Shown: positions 850 through 22,820 of the stretch, piece by piece
How positions within the stretch are numbered: position 1 is the stretch's first letter
Layout: the number at the start of each line of letters is the position of its first letter
IMG/VR virus record: IMGVR_UViG_3300032092_000278
Coordinates: 1-22,820 of that record
Direction: 5' to 3' (one strand)
From: a virus
Length of the DNA stretch: 22,820 nucleotides
Position numbers and translations under genes: made by a program
The notes under the pieces: generated by a model
What the model was told of the DNA's origin: nothing
Database searches by the model: none
Seen by the model: only the letters and a program-made list of their open reading frames with translations

Positions 850-2241
850 CTAAAACTTAAATCCTTCGAACGACTCTGCTTTTTGTCTGCGACCAAAATT
901 ACTCTTGTCAAACATTGGTTCATCGTCATCACTCTTTCCTGAATCACTCAGCGTTTGTGCCGATGCTTCTACATCATACAGTTTCATCTTCGCTCGATCA
1001 ACTCCAATAACAAATCTCTTATAGAATCCTGGATCGTTATAGCGATTCTTCAACTGTTTAACAATAATCTGATTCAATCCTTCCAACTCTTCATTGCTGA
1101 CCAAAGCAAACATAAAGTCAGCTGTCGCTGGCAAACCAAAAGATTCAGAGGTATCTTCAAGTCCTGGATCCGAGTTTGTGAATCCAGAACGAGTCGTTTG
1201 AGTGGCTGATACAATCGGAACATTATATTCAACTGCCAAACCTCTTAACTCTTCTGCAATGCTCTTAATATATGTATAAGAGTTAATACTTCCACCTTGC
1301 TTCATTCGTTGACTCGCACAGATGTTTAGATAGTCAATGAAGATGATATCAGGTTTGAATTCTCTTTTCAACTTTAGTTCTTCCAGCAATGCACGGAAGT
1401 GACCAGAGTGAGCACCAGCAGTTGGATACTCTTTGACGATTAGTTTGCCAGTAGTCTTACTTGTAATCTTGGCAATACGACTTTCGTAGATATCCCTGTC
1501 AATAACTTTCAATTCATCCATGGTTAGGTTCAGAAGATTCGCATCAATCCTTTCAGCGATTCGCTCTTCTGCCATTTCCATAGTTATGTATAATACATTT
1601 TTACCTTGGACTAAACAACCAGCACCCACGTGACACATAAACAAAGACTTACCAACACCAGTGCCAGCAAGACAGATATTAAGTGTTTTCTTTGAAAGTC
1701 CACCCTTAGTGATTTTATTGAACATGTCAAGGTCGAATGGAATCTTCTCTTCCACCCTGTGATAAAAATCATACCTTTCATTGTGGTCATCAAGATAGTC
1801 GTGACCAATATGATTATCAAATGAAACGGCAAGAGCATCAGAAAGAATAGATGGGATAGCGTCTTGCGTGTGTTGCTTGTCGTTGCCGTCAATGATTCGG
1901 ATTGCCGAAAGAACCCCATTATAAATTGCCCTATCTTTACAAAACTTTTCAGTATGTTCTAACATCCAGTCTTCATTGACTGGCTCTTGACTCAATGTAC
2001 CGATAAAATCGCCAAGTTCAGCCAACTCTTTATCGTTGAGATCTTTCCTATTGCTAACTTCAATCTGTAGGATTTCTTTAGATGCTGGTTTGTTATACTT
2101 CGTGAAGAAAGAAACAATCTCGTCTGCGAGGATTACTTCTTTACGATCTGCAAAATATTCTTTCTTGATAAATGGTATTACTTTACGACAATAGTTCTCA
2201 TCAAATATCAGATTGCTCAGAATCTTTTGTTCTATTCGCAT
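850..2241 (-). CDS. 41: Replicative DNA helicase (T4 gp41, DnaB family)
   Basis: Hexameric helicase that unwinds the fork and works with primase in T4-type replication. The 463-aa product matches T4 gp41 in length and layout: N-terminal segment ILSNLIFDENY, the linker FDNHIGHDYLDD near 141-152, Walker A AGTGVGKS at ~192-199, Walker B FIDYLNIC around Asp303, then ESFGLPATADFM and LKNRYNDPG as in DnaB-type RecA cores. The start chosen is the ATG at 2241; a TTG three bases further upstream is in frame but less likely. The start region lies inside the end of the 108-aa gene before it (41-base overlap), suggesting translational coupling. It is downstream of uvsX in the same transcription unit. Confidence 0.97.
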   Translation of the reverse strand: MRIEQKILSNLIFDENYCRKVIPFIKKEYFADRKEVILADEIVSFFTKYNKPASKEILQIEVSNRKDLNDKELAELGDFIGTLSQEPVNEDWMLEHTEKFCKDRAIYNGVLSAIRIIDGNDKQHTQDAIPSILSDALAVSFDNHIGHDYLDDHNERYDFYHRVEEKIPFDLDMFNKITKGGLSKKTLNICLAGTGVGKSLFMCHVGAGCLVQGKNVLYITMEMAEERIAERIDANLLNLTMDELKVIDRDIYESRIAKITSKTTGKLIVKEYPTAGAHSGHFRALLEELKLKREFKPDIIFIDYLNICASQRMKQGGSINSYTYIKSIAEELRGLAVEYNVPIVSATQTTRSGFTNSDPGLEDTSESFGLPATADFMFALVSNEELEGLNQIIVKQLKNRYNDPGFYKRFVIGVDRAKMKLYDVEASAQTLSDSGKSDDDEPMFDKSNFGRRQKAESFEGFKF

Positions 2242-2527
2242 CAATGTCTGTTCCGCCTGTATATGTTAAATTGTTATCTCTGACACCTTCATGGAGCAAT
2301 TCAGTTAATATGTCACCGATGTATTTCTCGAATGGTGCTTTATCTGATAGTGCTTTATCTGCCCAATCAAGAACTTCATATTCAAAATGTATAGTGGCAA
2401 TTTCTTCGTCTTCACCAAGTGTAACCTTACCGTAAGTATACATTATACCTGAAAATGGTTCTTCTGTCAACTTAATTGCTTGAAGGTCATTGTGTTTGTT
2501 TTCCATTACAACATAAGGTTTATTCAT
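2201..2527 (-). CDS. Unknown protein between uvsX and gp41
   Basis: An acidic 108-aa protein that I do not recognise. It has no membrane segment, signal peptide or cysteine motif. The best start is the ATG at 2527, whose ATGAATAA overlaps the UvsX stop; an in-frame TTG at 2533 is less likely. It overlaps uvsX by 8 bases and gp41 by about 41 bases, so the three genes are probably translated in a coupled way. Position between recombinase and helicase suggests a replication or recombination accessory role, but nothing in the sequence proves this. Confidence 0.85.
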   Translation of the reverse strand: MNKPYVVMENKHNDLQAIKLTEEPFSGIMYTYGKVTLGEDEEIATIHFEYEVLDWADKALSDKAPFEKYIGDILTELLHEGVRDNNLTYTGGTDIDANRTKDSEQSDI

Positions 2528-3593
2528 CTTCAAACTCTAATTCTTCCAATGCTTTATCAAGATCGTCTGCTTGAATCATCTCTCCTTGACCCATTGAATA
2601 TTTGTTCTTGACATAATCATAGAATGTTTTATCTGTAAGAAGTGGTAACCAAAACTCTTTAGTATCAGTATCTTTCAAACGATATTTCTTTTCTTCTACT
2701 TCTCCAGTAGCAGGATCACATTTTGCATACCAACCATTGGATGGTTTGACCACATGTTTGGACTCAAGAGCAATATCAAGCAAACCACTCCACTTACTAA
2801 GACCACCATCAAAAGATACGCTAACAGGTATCTTAGATTTTTCTTTAACATAACGACTCTTCTCAACATTAATAATAAAATTGTAACCAGTCAATTCTGT
2901 TCCATCTTTCTCTTGCTGACGACCAAGAATGAAAATGTTATCAGCTGAGTAATAAGAACCAGTTCCACCACCAACGATATCCTTTGGATATAATCCGATC
3001 TCTTTATATGTATGATTCACTACAACGAGTGGAATATCTTTCATTGATAGATGAGGTGTGACCATACGGAACAAACTCTTCATTTGTTTTGCACGACTCA
3101 TATCAGCAACTGCTTTCTGGTCTAATGCATCTTCAACTTCTTTCTTAGAAGCAAGATTACCAATAGAGTCAATAACGATAATCAAATGGTCACCACGCTC
3201 TACATTAGACAACTGTTGCATAATATCAAACTTTAATTGTTCAACATCTGTCACAGGAGTATGAAGCACACGCTTAGTATCAATACCAAATGTATCGAAG
3301 TAAGACTGTGGAGTACCAAACTCTGAATCATAGAACAACAATGCTGCATCTTCATACTTGTCCAAATACGACTTAGCCATTAACAAAGAGAATGCAGTTT
3401 TAAAGTGTTTGGATGGACCAGCCCACATTGTCAATCCTGGAACTAATCCACCATCAAGACGACCAGACAAAGCCACATTGATGATTGGGATTGAAGTAGG
3501 AATCATATCCTTCTTAGCGAAGAACTTAGACTGCGCAAGAATTGCGGAGTCTTTGATTGTGCTGTTCTTTTTGATTTTATCTAGTATACTCAT
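2520..3593 (-). CDS. uvsX: RecA-like recombinase UvsX
   Basis: Strand-exchange ATPase for recombination-dependent replication and repair in T4-like phages. The 357-aa product has the UvsX form of Walker A (GPSKHFKT, ~59-66), Walker B LIIVIDSIG with Asp142, the VVVNHTYKEIG segment and GGGTGSYYSADNIF motif typical of UvsX, and an acidic tail (ALEELEFEDE) like that of many recombinases. The ATG at 3593 is preceded by AAAGGTTAAT. The gene follows thioredoxin with a one-base gap and precedes the 108-aa unknown and gp41. Confidence 0.97.
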   Translation of the reverse strand: MSILDKIKKNSTIKDSAILAQSKFFAKKDMIPTSIPIINVALSGRLDGGLVPGLTMWAGPSKHFKTAFSLLMAKSYLDKYEDAALLFYDSEFGTPQSYFDTFGIDTKRVLHTPVTDVEQLKFDIMQQLSNVERGDHLIIVIDSIGNLASKKEVEDALDQKAVADMSRAKQMKSLFRMVTPHLSMKDIPLVVVNHTYKEIGLYPKDIVGGGTGSYYSADNIFILGRQQEKDGTELTGYNFIINVEKSRYVKEKSKIPVSVSFDGGLSKWSGLLDIALESKHVVKPSNGWYAKCDPATGEVEEKKYRLKDTDTKEFWLPLLTDKTFYDYVKNKYSMGQGEMIQADDLDKALEELEFEDE

Positions 3594-3886: not shown

Positions 3887-4438
3887 CTATGGATTGTTCT
3901 TGGAATGTGGAACATCAAACACAAATGTAATTCTAATTACATCACCAACATTTTGTGCACCATGGGACAGTTTATTGTTAAACCAGATTAAATCTCCAGC
4001 CTCAATTCTCACTGTTTCTCCACCCACAGTATAATCATATGCACCTTGTATTGCAAGATGATATCTGTCTCTGGTTTGATAGTATGTTCCAATATCAACA
4101 TGTTGCCCAACCATTCCACCAATTGGTAATGAAAGGAATCCACATCTATCAAATTTCTTAAAGTTGCGTTTTAAGAATCCAACAATCTCTGTATGTCTAT
4201 GGTATGCTGGTGTTTCAACAGAGTATTCACTATCACCCACGAATTGATTTATGTCAGCAATAGTTCCAATCTTTAACTGAAGTGCACCAACATTCATTGC
4301 AGAGAATCCATATTCATCAACTAGATCATGAACACCCTCTATTTTCTTTTGTCCACCCCAGTCCTCTGGATACTGATGCAACTGTTTCAATATTTTAGAA
4401 ACATTGATACCTCTTTTAATAACTCTAATATTAGCCAA
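3887..4438 (-). CDS. Aspartyl/asparaginyl beta-hydroxylase-like oxygenase
   Basis: A 183-aa protein resembling the aspartyl/asparaginyl beta-hydroxylase branch of 2OG-Fe(II) oxygenases. Visible motifs are GQHVDIGTYYQTRDRYHLAI with H113 and D115 as likely iron ligands, GDLIWFNNKLSHGAQN with H159 as the third, and R169 (VIRITFVFDVP) as the likely 2-oxoglutarate anchor. Substrate unknown. The start is probably the TTG at 4438: it has a very good Shine-Dalgarno (GGAGG, six bases away) and the next in-frame ATG is ~47 codons in. The start overlaps the last two codons and stop of gp43, so the two are probably coupled. It ends the long ligase-gp43 transcription unit. Confidence 0.88.
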   Translation of the reverse strand: MANIRVIKRGINVSKILKQLHQYPEDWGGQKKIEGVHDLVDEYGFSAMNVGALQLKIGTIADINQFVGDSEYSVETPAYHRHTEIVGFLKRNFKKFDRCGFLSLPIGGMVGQHVDIGTYYQTRDRYHLAIQGAYDYTVGGETVRIEAGDLIWFNNKLSHGAQNVGDVIRITFVFDVPHSKNNP

Positions 4439-17582: not shown

Positions 17583-17915
17583 TTATTCCTTAGAGTATTT
17601 CACATCGTGTTCGTGCAAGAACATTAAGCAACACATTGCGTGTGCTAGGTGATTCTTTCCAGTTTCGGGATCGTTTTGCTCTCCCTCTTTCCATGCCCAC
17701 AGATGTCTTTGCATCGCATCAAAGTATCTACGCTTTGAATCTGGAACATGCTTCCAATTATCTGGTTCGTATTTCTCCGCCCCAAATGTTAGAATTTCTA
17801 CAGTCGCTTTTAATGCGAGTGGTGGCAGTAAACCATATTGTAGTTTACCACCATCAAATTTACGACCACCTGTGGTGGCATTTTGCGATTTCTTTACGTC
17901 TTCTTTAGTTGCCAT
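17583..17915 (-). CDS. Putative dATP/dGTP diphosphohydrolase-like protein (DUF5664-like)
   Basis: A 110-aa protein with GGRKFDGGKLQYGLLPPLAL, VEILTFGAEKYEPDNWKHV, RRYFDAMQRHLWAWKEGE, DPETGKNHLAHAMCCLMFLHE. These blocks match my memory of a phage family related to MazG-type nucleotide pyrophosphatases (dATP/dGTP diphosphohydrolase N-terminal domain). Acidic residues in the EKY and the HLAHA region would hold Mg2+. It could trim dNTP pools or remove odd nucleotides; the exact substrate is not deducible. Start overlaps the preceding stop (TAATG). Confidence 0.85.
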   Translation of the reverse strand: MATKEDVKKSQNATTGGRKFDGGKLQYGLLPPLALKATVEILTFGAEKYEPDNWKHVPDSKRRYFDAMQRHLWAWKEGEQNDPETGKNHLAHAMCCLMFLHEHDVKYSKE

Positions 17916-18508: not shown

Positions 18509-18769
18509 TTAGGCTGTACGAGTAAATACAGTAGAACCAGCATAGCGGTTAGCCAAAGAAACCATTGCACGAGTTGGTTTACCGATGCGGTATTTAACCA
18601 CTTCAGTGCCATTTACAACTGCTGGGTTAGAGTAAACACAGTAACCTTGCTCACGCAAGTTACGGATTGTGCTTGCAGGATGTGCAATACCGAAAGAGGA
18701 CTTGATCTGCTTAGCAGTAAAAGTCTTGCCTTTTTGTAGGTGCGATAAAAGAAGTTCTTGCTTGGACAT
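18509..18769 (-). CDS. Helix-turn-helix protein, 86 aa
   Basis: A small DNA-binding candidate: MSKQELLLSHLQKGKTFTAKQIKSSFGIAHPASTIRNLREQGYCVYSN is a winged HTH pattern in which 'TAKQI--SFGI-HPASTIRNLREQGY' holds the recognition helix (~30-40) and wing. It could be a transcription regulator of phage genes or a DNA-end/primer protein. The ATG at 18769 has GGAG ten bases upstream; the open frame extends in front without a better site. It lies between a strong terminator and a hairpin. Confidence 0.88.
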   Translation of the reverse strand: MSKQELLLSHLQKGKTFTAKQIKSSFGIAHPASTIRNLREQGYCVYSNPAVVNGTEVVKYRIGKPTRAMVSLANRYAGSTVFTRTA

Positions 18770-18779
18770 TATATAATAT

Positions 18780-18791
18780 CTCCATAATAAA
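18780..18791 (-). promoter_or_regulatory. Shared leader motif TTTATTATGGAG before the HTH gene
   Basis: Identical to the motif before gp44 and before the AAA+ ATPase gene; here the start codon is ten bases after GGAG. A promoter for the HTH gene is not evident. Confidence 0.5.
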
Positions 18792-18803
18792 CAGCCATCA
18801 AAT

Positions 18804-18841
18804 GAAAAAATCATCTGGGGCGATGGCAGTACCCCAGATGA
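18804..18841 (-). terminator. Strong rho-independent terminator
   Basis: Minus strand TCATCTGGGG, an 11-base loop, CCCCAGATGA (18841-18811), followed by TTTTTTC. Ten perfect base pairs with four G-C pairs and a T-tract. It ends the unit of the gene at 18857-19345. Confidence 0.9.
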
Positions 18842-18856
18842 CAGATAAAACTCTAA

Positions 18857-19345
18857 TTAAACAGTGATGCCATTCTCACGTAGGATTGCATTGAAGTCTT
18901 CTGCTTCGTCATTGAATTCAGCAGACTCATCAACAATCTTTTGAAGACGAGACATTTCCATCTTATCTTCAGTGGCAACTGCAGTCTTAGCAGGTGCTTT
19001 GACTTTAACAGTCTTGGCTTTCGCAAGTTTCGCAACTTTCGCTTTAGCCTTAGCTACTTTTGGAGTATTCTTCTCAGCCAATTCTTTGGCATAAGCAGAC
19101 AACTCGACATCAGTAGGAATCGGCAACTGGTATACACCACGCTCGATTTTGTTTTTATTGAACAACCAATTTGGGTATCCAATCTTTTCACCCTTCGCAC
19201 CAGTACGCTGGTCACGAATTGCATAATAAATTGCAGCACATTCCTTCAGAGTAATCTGAGGAGCATTCTTGTACTGTTTGTTGGACTCAAGAACAGCCAC
19301 AACAAAACGCTTTTGAGACAAAGTCAAGTTTGCAAATTTCAACAT
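18857..19345 (-). CDS. Unknown basic protein with Lys/Ala-rich linker, 162 aa
   Basis: A 162-aa protein in three parts. The N-terminal ~75 residues end with YPNWLFNKNKIERGVYQLP, which resembles YPLWLMKNKVGRGLYAI in the AAA+ ATPase encoded just upstream. A Lys/Ala-rich histone-like linker follows (~95-120, such as KVAKAKAKVAKLAKAK), and then an acidic helical tail (MSRLQKIVDESAEFNDEAEDF). The linker suggests DNA or RNA binding; the shared motif suggests a role with the ATPase. Own promoter and strong terminator. ATG at 19345 follows AAAAGGAAA. Confidence 0.87.
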   Translation of the reverse strand: MLKFANLTLSQKRFVVAVLESNKQYKNAPQITLKECAAIYYAIRDQRTGAKGEKIGYPNWLFNKNKIERGVYQLPIPTDVELSAYAKELAEKNTPKVAKAKAKVAKLAKAKTVKVKAPAKTAVATEDKMEMSRLQKIVDESAEFNDEAEDFNAILRENGITV

Positions 19346-19476: not shown

Positions 19477-20637
19477 TTAGAAGGGAATCTCGTCGTCTGG
19501 CTTAGGTGTTTCTACTGCAACAGCCACTGGTTCAGGTTGTGGGTTTGCAACTTTATCGAACAAGTCAATGAATGCAGCTTTTGTTGCAGCATCAAAACGA
19601 TTGCAACACAACTCAACTGCTTTCATACGATCTTTAAAAATCGCAAAGGCACGAACAATATGGATCATACGACGAGTCGTAATTGTTTCATCCACACCAC
19701 CATCCTCGAAAGTGCGACGAATTGCTTCAGCCCACTTCACGAGTGTCTCTGCAAACTCGGCATCTAGACAGCCATAAGTTTCCATGAGATTCTTAATAAT
19801 CTTAACTTCGATTTTCGCATTTGGATATTCCTGTTCGAATGTAACAGCGAATCGCTCCAAGAATGCTTCGTTCAAGACGTTTGTACCGATGTAACGACCA
19901 TCGTCTGAACCCTTACCCTTAGTATTGGCAGTTGCAAAGATGTTGAATCCTTCTGCTGGAACAATCATCTCATTCTTGAGTTTGAAGTAATATGGCTTAC
20001 CCTCAAGAATCGGTTGCAAGCAAAGTAAAGTATTTGCTGAACCTGCATCGATCTCGTCAAGCAAGAGTGCAGTACCATTGCGCATGGCGATAAGGACTGG
20101 ACCCTCTACAATCTCCACATTACCATCTTCCAAAGTCTTGGAACCGATGAGTTGTTCTTCGTCTGTCATCATGTTGAGGTTAACACGAATCAATGGACGT
20201 TTGTGTTTGGCACAAATCTGTTCGACCATTGTTGACTTGCCATTCCCAGTTGGACCAGAAATATATGCAGGATAAAAGATACCAGACTTGATAATGTTTT
20301 CCAAATCGGTGTAGTTACCGAATGGAACAAAGTTGCTATCTTTCCTCGGGATCAACGCTGAGATGTCAGAGTAGTCTACCTTAAAGGATTCTTGTTTCAC
20401 AGGTTGTGCTTTCAGTGCAGTGTTTCCAACAACAGGGGTTGCACCACCATCAATAGCGTACAAACCACGACCAACTTTATTCTTCATAAGCCACAGAGGA
20501 TACTTCTCTGTCTTTAATGCTTTCATAACATTCAAAAGTTCTGGACGACTCACAGTGCCTTTAGTTGCAGTGTCAGGGTACATTTCTTTCATCTTTGATT
20601 CAAACGAATCACGGAACTGGTTATCAGTTTTTGCCAT
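19477..20637 (-). CDS. MoxR/CobS-like AAA+ ATPase
   Basis: A 386-aa AAA+ ATPase of the MoxR/CobS type. It has an N-terminal extension (~1-64) with the motif YPLWLMKNKVGRGLYAI, then Walker A GPTGNGKST (128-136), Walker B ALLLDEID (190-197), sensor 1 FATANT (234-239) and the ERF arginine-finger motif (261-263), with TTRRMIHIVRAFA as sensor 2. In cyanophages such genes are often named cobS (cobalt chelatase), but the pairing with a VWA protein upstream fits a general MoxR-VWA remodelling pair equally well. The ATG at 20637 is preferred; the ATG at 20649 overlaps the ribosome site GGAG. Confidence 0.92.
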   Translation of the reverse strand: MAKTDNQFRDSFESKMKEMYPDTATKGTVSRPELLNVMKALKTEKYPLWLMKNKVGRGLYAIDGGATPVVGNTALKAQPVKQESFKVDYSDISALIPRKDSNFVPFGNYTDLENIIKSGIFYPAYISGPTGNGKSTMVEQICAKHKRPLIRVNLNMMTDEEQLIGSKTLEDGNVEIVEGPVLIAMRNGTALLLDEIDAGSANTLLCLQPILEGKPYYFKLKNEMIVPAEGFNIFATANTKGKGSDDGRYIGTNVLNEAFLERFAVTFEQEYPNAKIEVKIIKNLMETYGCLDAEFAETLVKWAEAIRRTFEDGGVDETITTRRMIHIVRAFAIFKDRMKAVELCCNRFDAATKAAFIDLFDKVANPQPEPVAVAVETPKPDDEIPF

Positions 20638-20643
20638 CACATT

Positions 20644-20655
20644 CTCCATAATAAA
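20644..20655 (-). promoter_or_regulatory. Shared leader motif TTTATTATGGAG before the AAA+ gene
   Basis: Identical to the leader motif of gp44 and the HTH gene; its ATG overlaps GGAG so it could be a decoy start. The gene's start lies six bases after GGAG. Confidence 0.5.
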
Positions 20656-20682
20656 CTACACTTTCACAAATTCATAACGACT

Positions 20683-20711
20683 ATTATACTGTAATTAACA
20701 ATAAAAGTCAA
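20683..20711 (-). promoter_or_regulatory. Sigma70-type promoter of the AAA+ ATPase gene
   Basis: Minus strand TTGACT (20711-20706), 17 bases, TATAAT (20688-20683), then AGTCG. It is the closest match to the sigma70 consensus in the window. Confidence 0.85.
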
Positions 20712-20722
20712 CACTTATTTTT

Positions 20723-20738
20723 CCTTGTAGATACAAGG
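20723..20738 (-). repeat. Hairpin with CCTTGTAGATACA repeat after the VWA gene
   Basis: CCTTGT and ACAAGG pair around a four-base loop, just after the stop at 20742. The first 13 bases repeat those at 11881-11893. No T-tract follows on the minus strand. Confidence 0.55.
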
Positions 20739-20741
20739 GTC

Positions 20742-22820
20742 TTAGGCTACTAATCCAACGAATCGGTTGAGTAGGACTCGGGAAGTCTTCTTTACATTCA
20801 AGAATTTACCGAAATTCCTTGCAATCGCTTTTGCATTCGCATCTGCTTTTACATCTAACTCACCCTCTTGAATCTTGGTTGAGGACTGCGGGATCAGGAA
20901 CAATTCGTCACGACCAGTATTTTTTACTGATGCAAATCCTTGTGTTTTAAATTGTTTTTTCCATGCTTCAACTAGTGCATACATATCGCCATTGTAGTTA
21001 GGTAGATTTGATTGCAAGACACCACGCAAATCACGACCACGATTCTGACAGATATGGAATCCAACCATTGCAACATTATAGCGATCTTTAATCATTCGAA
21101 GAATCATCTCAGTTTGATTACCAGATAGACGACCAATTTCGTAAGTCTTCTGTGTAACTTCATCTTTAATAAAGTTCTTGATTTTGATTCGTTTGTACAT
21201 ACCATCAACAACTTCAGTACGAGAGTCATCGAAACGACCATAAGAATACGTATTCAATGAACCACCTTCACCATCGGTAAGAGTGATGAAAGTTGTTTTC
21301 TCGATATTGTTATTCTTGATAAATGTACCCAAAGTATTATAGCAATATACCAATGCTTCATTTAATGGAGTACCACCAGTGTTATAACCTTCATTCCAGT
21401 GGAAACGATAGTCAAGGATACGACGAGCCATTGAATTGAATTCACTGCTAGTCATTTTGTTATTAAAGAATTCTAACAGATGGAATCTGTCTGCACAGTC
21501 AATCAAGTTATTTTCTTCTCGCCTTGCAGTTCTCCAAGCATGATATGATTCATTTTCTGCTTGAGTTCGAGTTATCCTGTCATTATAGTCAGTGGTGAAT
21601 GCAAAGACACGATATGGAATCTGAACACGATTACAGAACATAGCCAGATTAATAACCTGCTTCATTGTATCTTTCAATACCTCATTCATTGAACCAGACC
21701 AGTCAACAAGAAGAATCATACCATGATTCTTACCTTGTGGTAGAGAAGTCACACGCTTGAACAAATCGTCTTGCAACTTATATGCATAGACTTTCTTCAT
21801 GTCCAATGAACCAATCTTTGATATCGTTGCACGCTTATGTAGTTGAGCAGACTTTTTCATCTCGAATTCTTTCACGAGATAATTAACAGTACGAATTGAT
21901 TCGGTTTTGAATTGTACAAAATCTAAATCCTCTGCTGCATGAAAAGCAGTTCGTTGTTCATCACTCATATTGCGAGTGCGGTAGTCAATCGTATCTGGAC
22001 TATCAACTGACCATTTTTCAGGTGATTTAGTTTCATTGAGGACTTGTTTGTAGCCAATAACTGGATCTGTAAAATAGTCTGTATCAAATTTCCAATATTT
22101 GTATTCAGTGGAATCGTCAGCAAGGTCTTCCAATTTGTTTTGGAATGCTCTTTCTGTTTTTGATTCTAAGTCATCACCCTCTTCTGACTTGTCATCATTT
22201 TGTAGATTAGATGATTTATTCTGTTTTGATGGTTTCAGATCTTCATCATTACCACCATCTTGTTCTTCAAAGTCATCATCGCCATCGATGTCAAAGTCAC
22301 CATAAATTGGATCTTCGTTTTCATCTTCGTCATCACCATCTTCTTCCTGTTCTTGGAATTTGGCATTTTGTTTACGCTCTTCGGCTACTTGTTTGGAATA
22401 TGCATAGATATCGTTTGCTAATGCAATGATTTCATCGACAGTCTCAGTGCGTTCAGCACGATTCACAAATACCTTTTCGTCAGGTGTGAATGTTACACCA
22501 CACTGGAATCCAGCCTTAAAGTAGAGATTGATTTTGTCGATGAGTAACAAGTCGTCAAAGTTTTGAACTTGTTTCGTGCCAAAGAAGTCACGATCATTGA
22601 GTTGCTTATATCCTTCGTTCATGCGTTTGCGCAATCCTGGATATTTGCGTTTGATAAGTTTCTCGATACGAACATCTTCTAGGACATTCATGTATGAGTG
22701 TAACTTAGGGGTATCCCTTAGTGGTTCAAGATAGTCATCGTTGGTGTAAAGGGCATGACCCACTTCGTGACCAACTAACATATCTTCAATTTCGGGAGTC
22801 ATATCTTTCCACATCGGCAG
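20742..22820 (-). CDS. VWA-domain protein with HExxH motif (CobT-like), 5'-partial
   Basis: At least 690 residues. The frame stays open to the window edge (a Leu-Pro precedes the first ATG at 22814), so the true start may lie outside. Near the start is MLVGHEVGHALYT, an HExxH zinc-metallopeptidase motif, with NVLEDVRIE ~30 residues on as a possible third ligand. A very acidic linker (~155-220) follows, then a VWA domain with a complete MIDAS set: DWSGSM, the Thr in TGGTPLNEA, and TLTDGEGG. CobT, the partner of CobS, has a comparable acidic stretch plus VWA. The next gene is the matching AAA+ ATPase. Protease activity is possible but unproven. Confidence 0.93.
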   Translation of the reverse strand: MPMWKDMTPEIEDMLVGHEVGHALYTNDDYLEPLRDTPKLHSYMNVLEDVRIEKLIKRKYPGLRKRMNEGYKQLNDRDFFGTKQVQNFDDLLLIDKINLYFKAGFQCGVTFTPDEKVFVNRAERTETVDEIIALANDIYAYSKQVAEERKQNAKFQEQEEDGDDEDENEDPIYGDFDIDGDDDFEEQDGGNDEDLKPSKQNKSSNLQNDDKSEEGDDLESKTERAFQNKLEDLADDSTEYKYWKFDTDYFTDPVIGYKQVLNETKSPEKWSVDSPDTIDYRTRNMSDEQRTAFHAAEDLDFVQFKTESIRTVNYLVKEFEMKKSAQLHKRATISKIGSLDMKKVYAYKLQDDLFKRVTSLPQGKNHGMILLVDWSGSMNEVLKDTMKQVINLAMFCNRVQIPYRVFAFTTDYNDRITRTQAENESYHAWRTARREENNLIDCADRFHLLEFFNNKMTSSEFNSMARRILDYRFHWNEGYNTGGTPLNEALVYCYNTLGTFIKNNNIEKTTFITLTDGEGGSLNTYSYGRFDDSRTEVVDGMYKRIKIKNFIKDEVTQKTYEIGRLSGNQTEMILRMIKDRYNVAMVGFHICQNRGRDLRGVLQSNLPNYNGDMYALVEAWKKQFKTQGFASVKNTGRDELFLIPQSSTKIQEGELDVKADANAKAIARNFGKFLNVKKTSRVLLNRFVGLVA

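Follow-up and report, generated by a model that had tools for sequence, protein, structure and literature searches.

A MoxR-type ATPase and a VWA protein of T4-like phages: a probable remodelling machine with a gluzincin-like domain

Do the cobS-like gene of cyanophages and the VWA protein gene beside it serve cobalamin synthesis, or do they encode a machine of another kind? The question is posed by the right end of IMG/VR record IMGVR_UViG_3300032092_000278, a 22,820-base record of a T4-like phage whose gp41-type helicase has 70-80% DNA identity to Synechococcus phages; this whole stretch is referred to as the window. On its minus strand, on which all window features given below lie, an open frame of 692 residues encoding the VWA protein runs past the window end (20742..22820), and the gene for a 390-residue AAA+ ATPase (19477..20649) starts 92 bases downstream of it. 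The two products probably work together as a protein-remodelling machine of the MoxR/VWA type, whose VWA subunit bears at its N terminus a gluzincin domain with a complete catalytic consensus.

The VWA protein is a member of PHROG 459 ("peptidase"; E 5.3e-168 over 692 residues, profile positions 40-736 of 736). The window copy is cut at its 5' end, since full-length relatives start ~38 residues further upstream, and lacks about 38 N-terminal residues; L031, a full-length relative that is 93% identical to it, supplies the residue numbering and the structural model. Of the gluzincin-like N-terminal domain, 22341..22820 is visible, which corresponds approximately to residues 39-200 in full-length numbering, according to the AlphaFold2 model and VIA-align. 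This stretch contains HEVGH (22755..22769; residues 18-22 of the visible frame, 56-60 of L031), comprising two predicted zinc ligands and the catalytic Glu, and NVLEDVRIE (22662..22688), in which E86 is the predicted third ligand. The following linker (22041..22340) has an acidic start, with 41% Asp/Glu over 75 residues, and a low predicted local distance difference test (pLDDT) score at model residues 201-248. The C-terminal half (20745..22100) bears the motifs of a metal ion-dependent adhesion site (MIDAS): DWSGSM (21687-21704), TGGTPL (21363-21380) and LTDGEG (21264-21281). The ATPase, a CobS-like MoxR protein, matches Pfam AAA_5 (2.5e-17), CbbQ_C (1.9e-5) and PHROG 249 (labelled porphyrin biosynthesis; 2.5e-105), with the Walker A motif GPTGNGKS (20233-20256) and the Walker B motif LLLDEID (20047-20067). 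An AAA_5-type ATPase thus stands beside a VWA protein with an intact MIDAS.

Relatives of the VWA protein were detected by tblastn in 463 of 50,697 phage records, chiefly those of Synechococcus and Prochlorococcus phages, and relatives of the ATPase in 832, of which just 23 cover 80% of it. The two genes adjoin in Pelagibacter phage HTVC008M and Synechococcus phage Syn19; the pair is therefore already known and the window adds a member, its VWA copy being ~29-36% identical to the listed named cyanophages and the pelagiphage and up to 99% identical to uncultured contigs. Lack of conservation of HExxH among phage homologues had been named beforehand, in a first-pass annotation of the window, among the findings that would refute its reading of the pair. 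A VWA relative is present in 170 loci, the motif region is covered in 159, and all 159 have HExxH together with N..ED.[RK][IV][ED]. This count combines 63 and 14 loci from scans without the motif in their search patterns, 80 from a scan that used GHEVGHA and is biased, and two named phages, with some contigs recurring between scans; in the unbiased scans, HExxH and N..ED.RI[ED] occur in 77/77 loci (63/63 and 14/14). The last His and the Glu are separated by 20-42 residues, mostly 24-26. Among 76 full-length proteins, 38 columns are invariant, including H56, E57, H60, N83, E86, D87 and R89, and so are the MIDAS residues D409, S411, S413, T520 and D552. When the window protein was shuffled 20,000 times, HExxH arose in 201 cases and HExxH with N..ED.RIE in none. 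The ATPase gene lies directly downstream of the VWA gene in 118 of the 135 loci with room for it. A scan of bacterial and archaeal genomes for cellular relatives gave 18 loci with phage-type VWA genes, most of them on contigs of marine metagenome-assembled genomes (e.g. L157, L161, L163), which are likely binned viral contigs or proviruses. In Staphylococcus phage G1, HExxH is absent from three neighbours of its distant ATPase.

The predicted fold agrees with the motif. AlphaFold2 modelled L031 from 76 sequences with a mean pLDDT of 81.1 (92.6 for residues 1-200 alone): three strands precede helix 47-63, which carries HExxH, and helix 76-97, which carries E86, so that the predicted structure has the gluzincin arrangement of HExxH and a downstream Glu on a second helix. 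When the N-terminal domain was compared with 298 chains by VIA-align, rows 1-21 were all of zincin fold (Z 8.1 to 5.0), led by abylysin (4jiu, Z 8.1, 94 of 105 residues aligned) and jannalysin (7.6), with selecase, BlaR1, IrrE/PprI, ArdC, BepA, ZMPSTE24, a putative Zn-dependent peptidase and Wss1 among the others; IrrE, ArdC and selecase we take to be zincins or minigluzincins. A Z of 8 is weak alone, and it is the agreement of the whole list with the independent sequence motif that makes the case for a zincin fold. Predicted viral structures searched with the same domain yielded VWA proteins named CobT or cobalamin biosynthesis protein from siphoviruses and uncultured phages; a sequence search of solved structures gave no relative of the VWA protein or its N-terminal domain. 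The C-terminal half aligns to the VWA part of NorD (9qh6_G, Z 15.3, 259 residues, root-mean-square deviation (rmsd) 5.3; model residues 277-728) and to the MIDAS domain of midasin (8ql1, Z 14.9, 222 residues, rmsd 4.0), and the ATPase matches solved midasin, CobS, CbbQ and NorQ structures. These matches, with AAA_5 and the adjacency of the genes, bear out the earlier proposal of a MoxR-type ATPase paired with a VWA protein. The possible later Glu ligand, "E48" in visible-frame count, is the first Glu of ED.RIE (E86 full-length); it is invariant and lies with HExxH in one predicted zincin-like domain, on neighbouring helices.

The same architecture extends beyond T4-like phages. Two bacterial genomes encode proteins that satisfy the CobT model, or come close to doing so, and yet have HExxH; one is beside DUF3150, and both are near a Toprim primase. 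One of these proteins has relatives in 2,233 of 72,556 plasmid records, 1,915 of them typed conjugative. In seven of eight plasmid regions, the VWA gene shares the stretch with DUF3150 and with an ATPase gene of AAA or MoxR type, and five of the eight have genes for RecT, Bet or lambda exonuclease. In plasmid loci L214, L216, L217 and L219-L222, the HExxH-VWA gene adjoins a DUF3150 gene that has a MoxR ATPase gene close by, and DUF3150 is possibly a third component of the plasmid machine; it gave no match in ten of ten phage records, where no control matched either, so that its absence is not shown. Eleven further VWA proteins (eight plasmid, two genome, one Ochrobactrum phage) all have HExxH, ten with ED.RI within 60 residues and the eleventh, L217, with a long insert and a weaker match. 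Two haloarchaeal viruses, of families named as cobST carriers in the passages available of PMC8651126, have HECGH...EDGAIE and HEVQH...EDNHID. In one of them, HHTV-2 (L268), the peptidase-like domain and the VWA domain are separate genes (416-1483 and 1703-2989, plus strand), and the free-standing peptidase-like protein (R4T663) was also found by fold among the predicted viral structures. Phage and plasmid N-terminal domains align by hhalign with a score of 105.4 over 149 columns (best of 40 column shuffles, 22.6), and PHROG 1576 matches the window, plasmid and archaeal virus proteins.

The plasmid proteins also provide the bridge to cellular proteins. Their N-terminal domain, with L217 and L223 left out, aligns to that of cellular CobT with a score of 65.5 over 194 columns (best shuffle, 21.2), placing HEAAH opposite residues around ADSVA and ED.RIE opposite EQARVE: CobT keeps the downstream Glu and lacks HExxH there (0/17 aligned CobT rows), in keeping with the earlier remark that HEVGH is not part of CobT. 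Across 30 CobT loci, one HExxH string was found, at residue 31 of an over-long frame, which we read as upstream of the domain. Direct hhalign of phage protein and CobT over the whole length aligned just the linker-VWA region, and the N-terminal comparisons, which scored 22.0 (at most 19.6 in 30 shuffles) and 25.1 (at most 21.9 in 40), are unconvincing alone; the link between the phage and CobT N-terminal domains is made by the plasmid bridge and PHROG 1576. CbbO-type proteins, identified by an adjoining CbbQ-type ATPase and in one locus also Rubisco, have H[MLI]AAH in place of HExxH in 8/8 loci, keeping both His and the downstream Glu; the loci were picked by VWA and ED.R[IV] motifs, so that ED.R[IV] is no separate evidence. 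The N-terminal domain of CbbO, a region termed poorly conserved in the passages available of PMC4660213, aligns to that of the phage protein at 53.0 (best of 25 shuffles, 18.9). Sequence comparison did not tie the N-terminal domain of NorD convincingly to those of phages, plasmids or CobT, and tied it weakly to that of CbbO (23.9, against at most 17.8 in 25 shuffles). PF13203 (putative metallopeptidase, DUF2201_N) exceeded its cut-off in one of 150 genomes. These alignments suggest that CobT and CbbO are altered relatives of the HExxH proteins.

Several observations weigh against a gluzincin-bearing remodelling machine. With the isolated N-terminal domain, no solved structure reached E 0.001 in Foldseek, where 4jix_B came first (E 0.12) and the first eight rows (E 0.12 to 1.0) are minigluzincins and ArdC, and VIA-align itself warns that a Z near 8 can reflect a common arrangement; support for the zincin fold is thus of moderate strength, with VIA-align finding it and Foldseek E values that are not significant. 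In 17 of the 135 loci, no ATPase was detected in the 1.5 kb that follow the VWA gene. CbbO, furthermore, shows that relatives function without the catalytic Glu, so that a conserved site is no guarantee that all members are proteolytic. Replacement of this residue by M, L or I in all eight CbbO loci and the lack of HExxH in CobT indicate that MoxR/VWA machines can work without catalysis, as would a metal scaffold whose domain binds zinc for structure or substrate docking, as that of CbbO might, in a machine that only remodels. A pure scaffold would, however, be expected to tolerate loss of the catalytic Glu, which is retained in all 159 phage loci, in 11/11 further proteins and in both archaeal viruses; we therefore regard a non-catalytic scaffold as unlikely.

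What, then, of cobalamin? In the listed records of named cyanophages, the ATPase is labelled CobS or porphyrin biosynthesis, as the first-pass annotation had expected of phage copies in general, whereas the VWA protein is mostly labelled peptidase. Liu et al. 2021 (PMC8651126) proposed, in the passages available, a viral CobST that joins host CobN to make cobalamin. The ATPase lends itself to this view: a 44-row tree, which leaves out the long plasmid rows L217 and L261 and has its groups labelled from neighbours and models, splits phage, CobS and plasmid ATPases from NorQ and CbbQ at 100/100, and the window ATPase scores 88.6 bits on the CobS model TIGR01650. The cut-off of that equivalog is 558.55, however, and the 12 CobS rows, every one from Pseudomonadota, form one clade (100/100) that the plasmid rows adjoin (92/80), with the 15 phage rows outside (87/90). 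The likeness to CobS that had been noted from the sequence therefore stands as relatedness and not as membership: by these sequence comparisons, the phage ATPase is CobS-like without being established as a CobS. The VWA protein has no match to PF06213 or PF11775 at E up to 1 and none to the CobT model TIGR01651, on which cellular CobT, as positive control, scores 956 bits. CobN (PF02514) was absent from nine of nine phage records of relatives, some of which, like the window, are fragments, and a host CobN is possible. Across 146 cyanobacterial genomes, PF06213 was found in none and TIGR01650 over cut-off in none (weaker matches in 10/146), the strongest sub-threshold match (4.2e-22) being on contig 3 of a genome from which the phage-like locus L157 also comes; these genomes thus showed no cyanobacterial CobST that phages could have copied. 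A single origin of phage cobS from a host, as stated in the passages available of PMC9983427, is not supported for cyanobacterial hosts by these genome searches. With HExxH also present in the two archaeal viruses of families named by Liu et al., a viral CobST appears highly improbable, and the sequence matches indicate that the pair is not a cobaltochelatase.

How might the proposed remodelling machine operate? In cryo-electron microscopy structures of NorQD, a finger of the VWA protein is located in the ATPase pore, and the authors propose that the VWA part twists against the N-terminal domain, straining the linker (passages available of PMC13036017). By analogy with these structures, the phage ATPase would form a ring, and a finger segment would seat the VWA part in its pore, where it may hold the substrate through the MIDAS site. 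With ATP turnover, the VWA part would then twist, across the linker, relative to the N-terminal domain, and the gluzincin domain may cut, hold or release the strained substrate. Strain driven by ATP, coupled to cutting or holding, is proposed because the phage protein has the NorD order of N-terminal domain, linker and VWA. Zinc binding and proteolysis are predicted from the residues of the N-terminal domain: cutting is presumed since the catalytic Glu is conserved in the phage proteins and lacked by both cellular relatives.

The nature of the substrate is a separate matter. The first-pass annotation had seen a protein-remodelling or cleavage machine aimed at host or virion proteins; remodelling is the best reading, but the aim was a guess, as the neighbours point as much to replication and recombination. 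In the phages, the pair is flanked by gp46/47 and, on its other side, by genes for the clamp, clamp loader, RegA and polymerase. These neighbours weakly favour replication and recombination, with DNA-bound proteins as substrates, over virion proteins; the argument is weak, since T4-like phages inherit their gene order. Iyer et al. 2021 (PMC7824862, passages available) proposed instead, by analogy with a MoxR/VWA pair of an archaeal virus, a role in virion assembly, that is, a protease-chaperone maturing head or tail proteins, which differs from the remodelling machine favoured here in its target alone. An Hsp20 gene in the window fits such a role, whereas the position of the pair between recombination and clamp genes, and not among structural genes, does not. 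Among 25 cyanophage core genes, moreover, T4-GC 15 and 190 are those reported as virion proteins and the pair is T4-GC 146 and 150, although this argument is weak as well, since enzymes of assembly can be missing from the finished virion. The pair goes unmentioned in the available passages of papers on the timing of expression and on virion proteomics. We consider the virion assembly role possible but doubtful. A bolder proposal extends the DNA-bound target to a whole class: AAA+-coupled gluzincins of mobile elements, with the phage pair as one branch, that would clear proteins from replicating or recombining DNA as a prokaryotic counterpart to Wss1-Cdc48, with CobT and CbbO as descendants with a dead peptidase site. 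It draws on the place of the phage pair between the gp46/47 nuclease and the clamp and on the plasmid genes, often beside RecT, Bet or exonuclease; the minigluzincin-like protease Wss1 works with the AAA+ ATPase Cdc48 on chromatin-bound conjugates (passages available of PMC4559962), and is adduced by analogy, as a parallel and not as a homology claim. This proposal we hold to be quite unlikely.

Some neighbouring genes in the window deserve mention in their own right. A 162-residue protein encoded downstream of the ATPase (18857-19345) has the pattern YPxWL..NK..RG.Y in common with the extra N-terminal part of the ATPase, where it reads YPLWLMKNKVGRGLY (20458..20502; BLASTP E 6e-4 over 18 residues). 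Of the phage ATPases that have 60 or more residues ahead of Walker A, 69 of 131 show the pattern, and in 44 loci it occurs in a frame of its own that lacks a Walker A motif; it is possibly a small domain common to neighbouring genes. A small winged-helix protein (18509-18814) matches Pfam HTH_39 (4.7e-5) and PHROG 4973 (2.7e-11). The frame at 14718-15326 matches PHROG 81, 2OG-Fe(II) oxygenase, and that at 17915-18475 matches PHROG 274, named DNA endonuclease V, and weakly the oxygenase family; the name of PHROG 274 may be wrong. Matches to PHROG 32420, of unknown function (3887-4438), and, for a 110-residue protein (17583-17915), to a dATP/dGTP pyrophosphohydrolase family and to "endolysin inhibiting RNA polymerase" families, names that conflict, complete these observations.

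The cyanophage peptidase is held to be a mislabelled CobT in the passages available of PMC8651126, and those of PMC7824862 describe a MoxR-vWA pair with an N-terminal metallopeptidase, for jumbo phages of group 2.2. As far as these passages go, the data side with the latter on the metallopeptidase domain and against the mislabelled-CobT view. The architecture itself has been known since 2021; new with respect to the literature searched is the suggestion that CobT and CbbO are altered, degenerate-zincin relatives, a degenerate zincin domain in either having not been found there, with subscription papers mostly outside the search. The series of HExxH in phages, archaeal viruses and plasmids, H[MLI]AAH in CbbO and no HExxH in CobT would explain the dispute over the names peptidase and CobT, and would give the unassigned N-terminal regions of CbbO and CobT an origin. 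The gene cobS is widely treated as an auxiliary metabolic gene for B12 in cyanophages and serves as a marker of their communities (passages available of PMC9983427); if the pair is a peptidase-armed remodelling machine, the B12 reading of cobS does not hold, and a testable enzymatic function can be ascribed to two core genes of phages that rank among the most abundant in the sea.

Compared with known systems, the pair resembles NorQD, which serves the assembly of the nitric oxide reductase cNOR, in its VWA part and in the order of N-terminal domain, long linker and VWA; no convincing sequence link was found between the N-terminal domain of NorD and the phage domain, and NorQ belongs to another ATPase clade. 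The Rubisco activase CbbQO shares a related N-terminal domain with ED.R[IV][DE] and PGL kept, and differs at the HExxH position. To CobS/CobT the pair is tied by the relatedness of the ATPases and, through the plasmid proteins, by the N-terminal domain, whereas CobT has no HExxH at the aligned place and the phage pair falls short of the equivalog models. Minigluzincins are the best structural matches of the N-terminal domain, and Wss1 likewise pairs with an AAA+ ATPase, yet neither has a significant sequence match, and the Wss1 partner is of another ATPase class, with no VWA part. The group 2.2 jumbo phage pair likewise combines a MoxR ATPase with a vWA protein that has a metallopeptidase at its N terminus; in the passages available of PMC7824862, the pair is named for group 2.2 and not for the cyanophage-like group 2.1, which includes Ochrobactrum phage vB_OspM_OC and cyanophages, and the likeness is one of described architecture. 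The "peptidase" of marine T4-like phages (PHROG 459, T4-GC 146), finally, is the same family in the same place before cobS.

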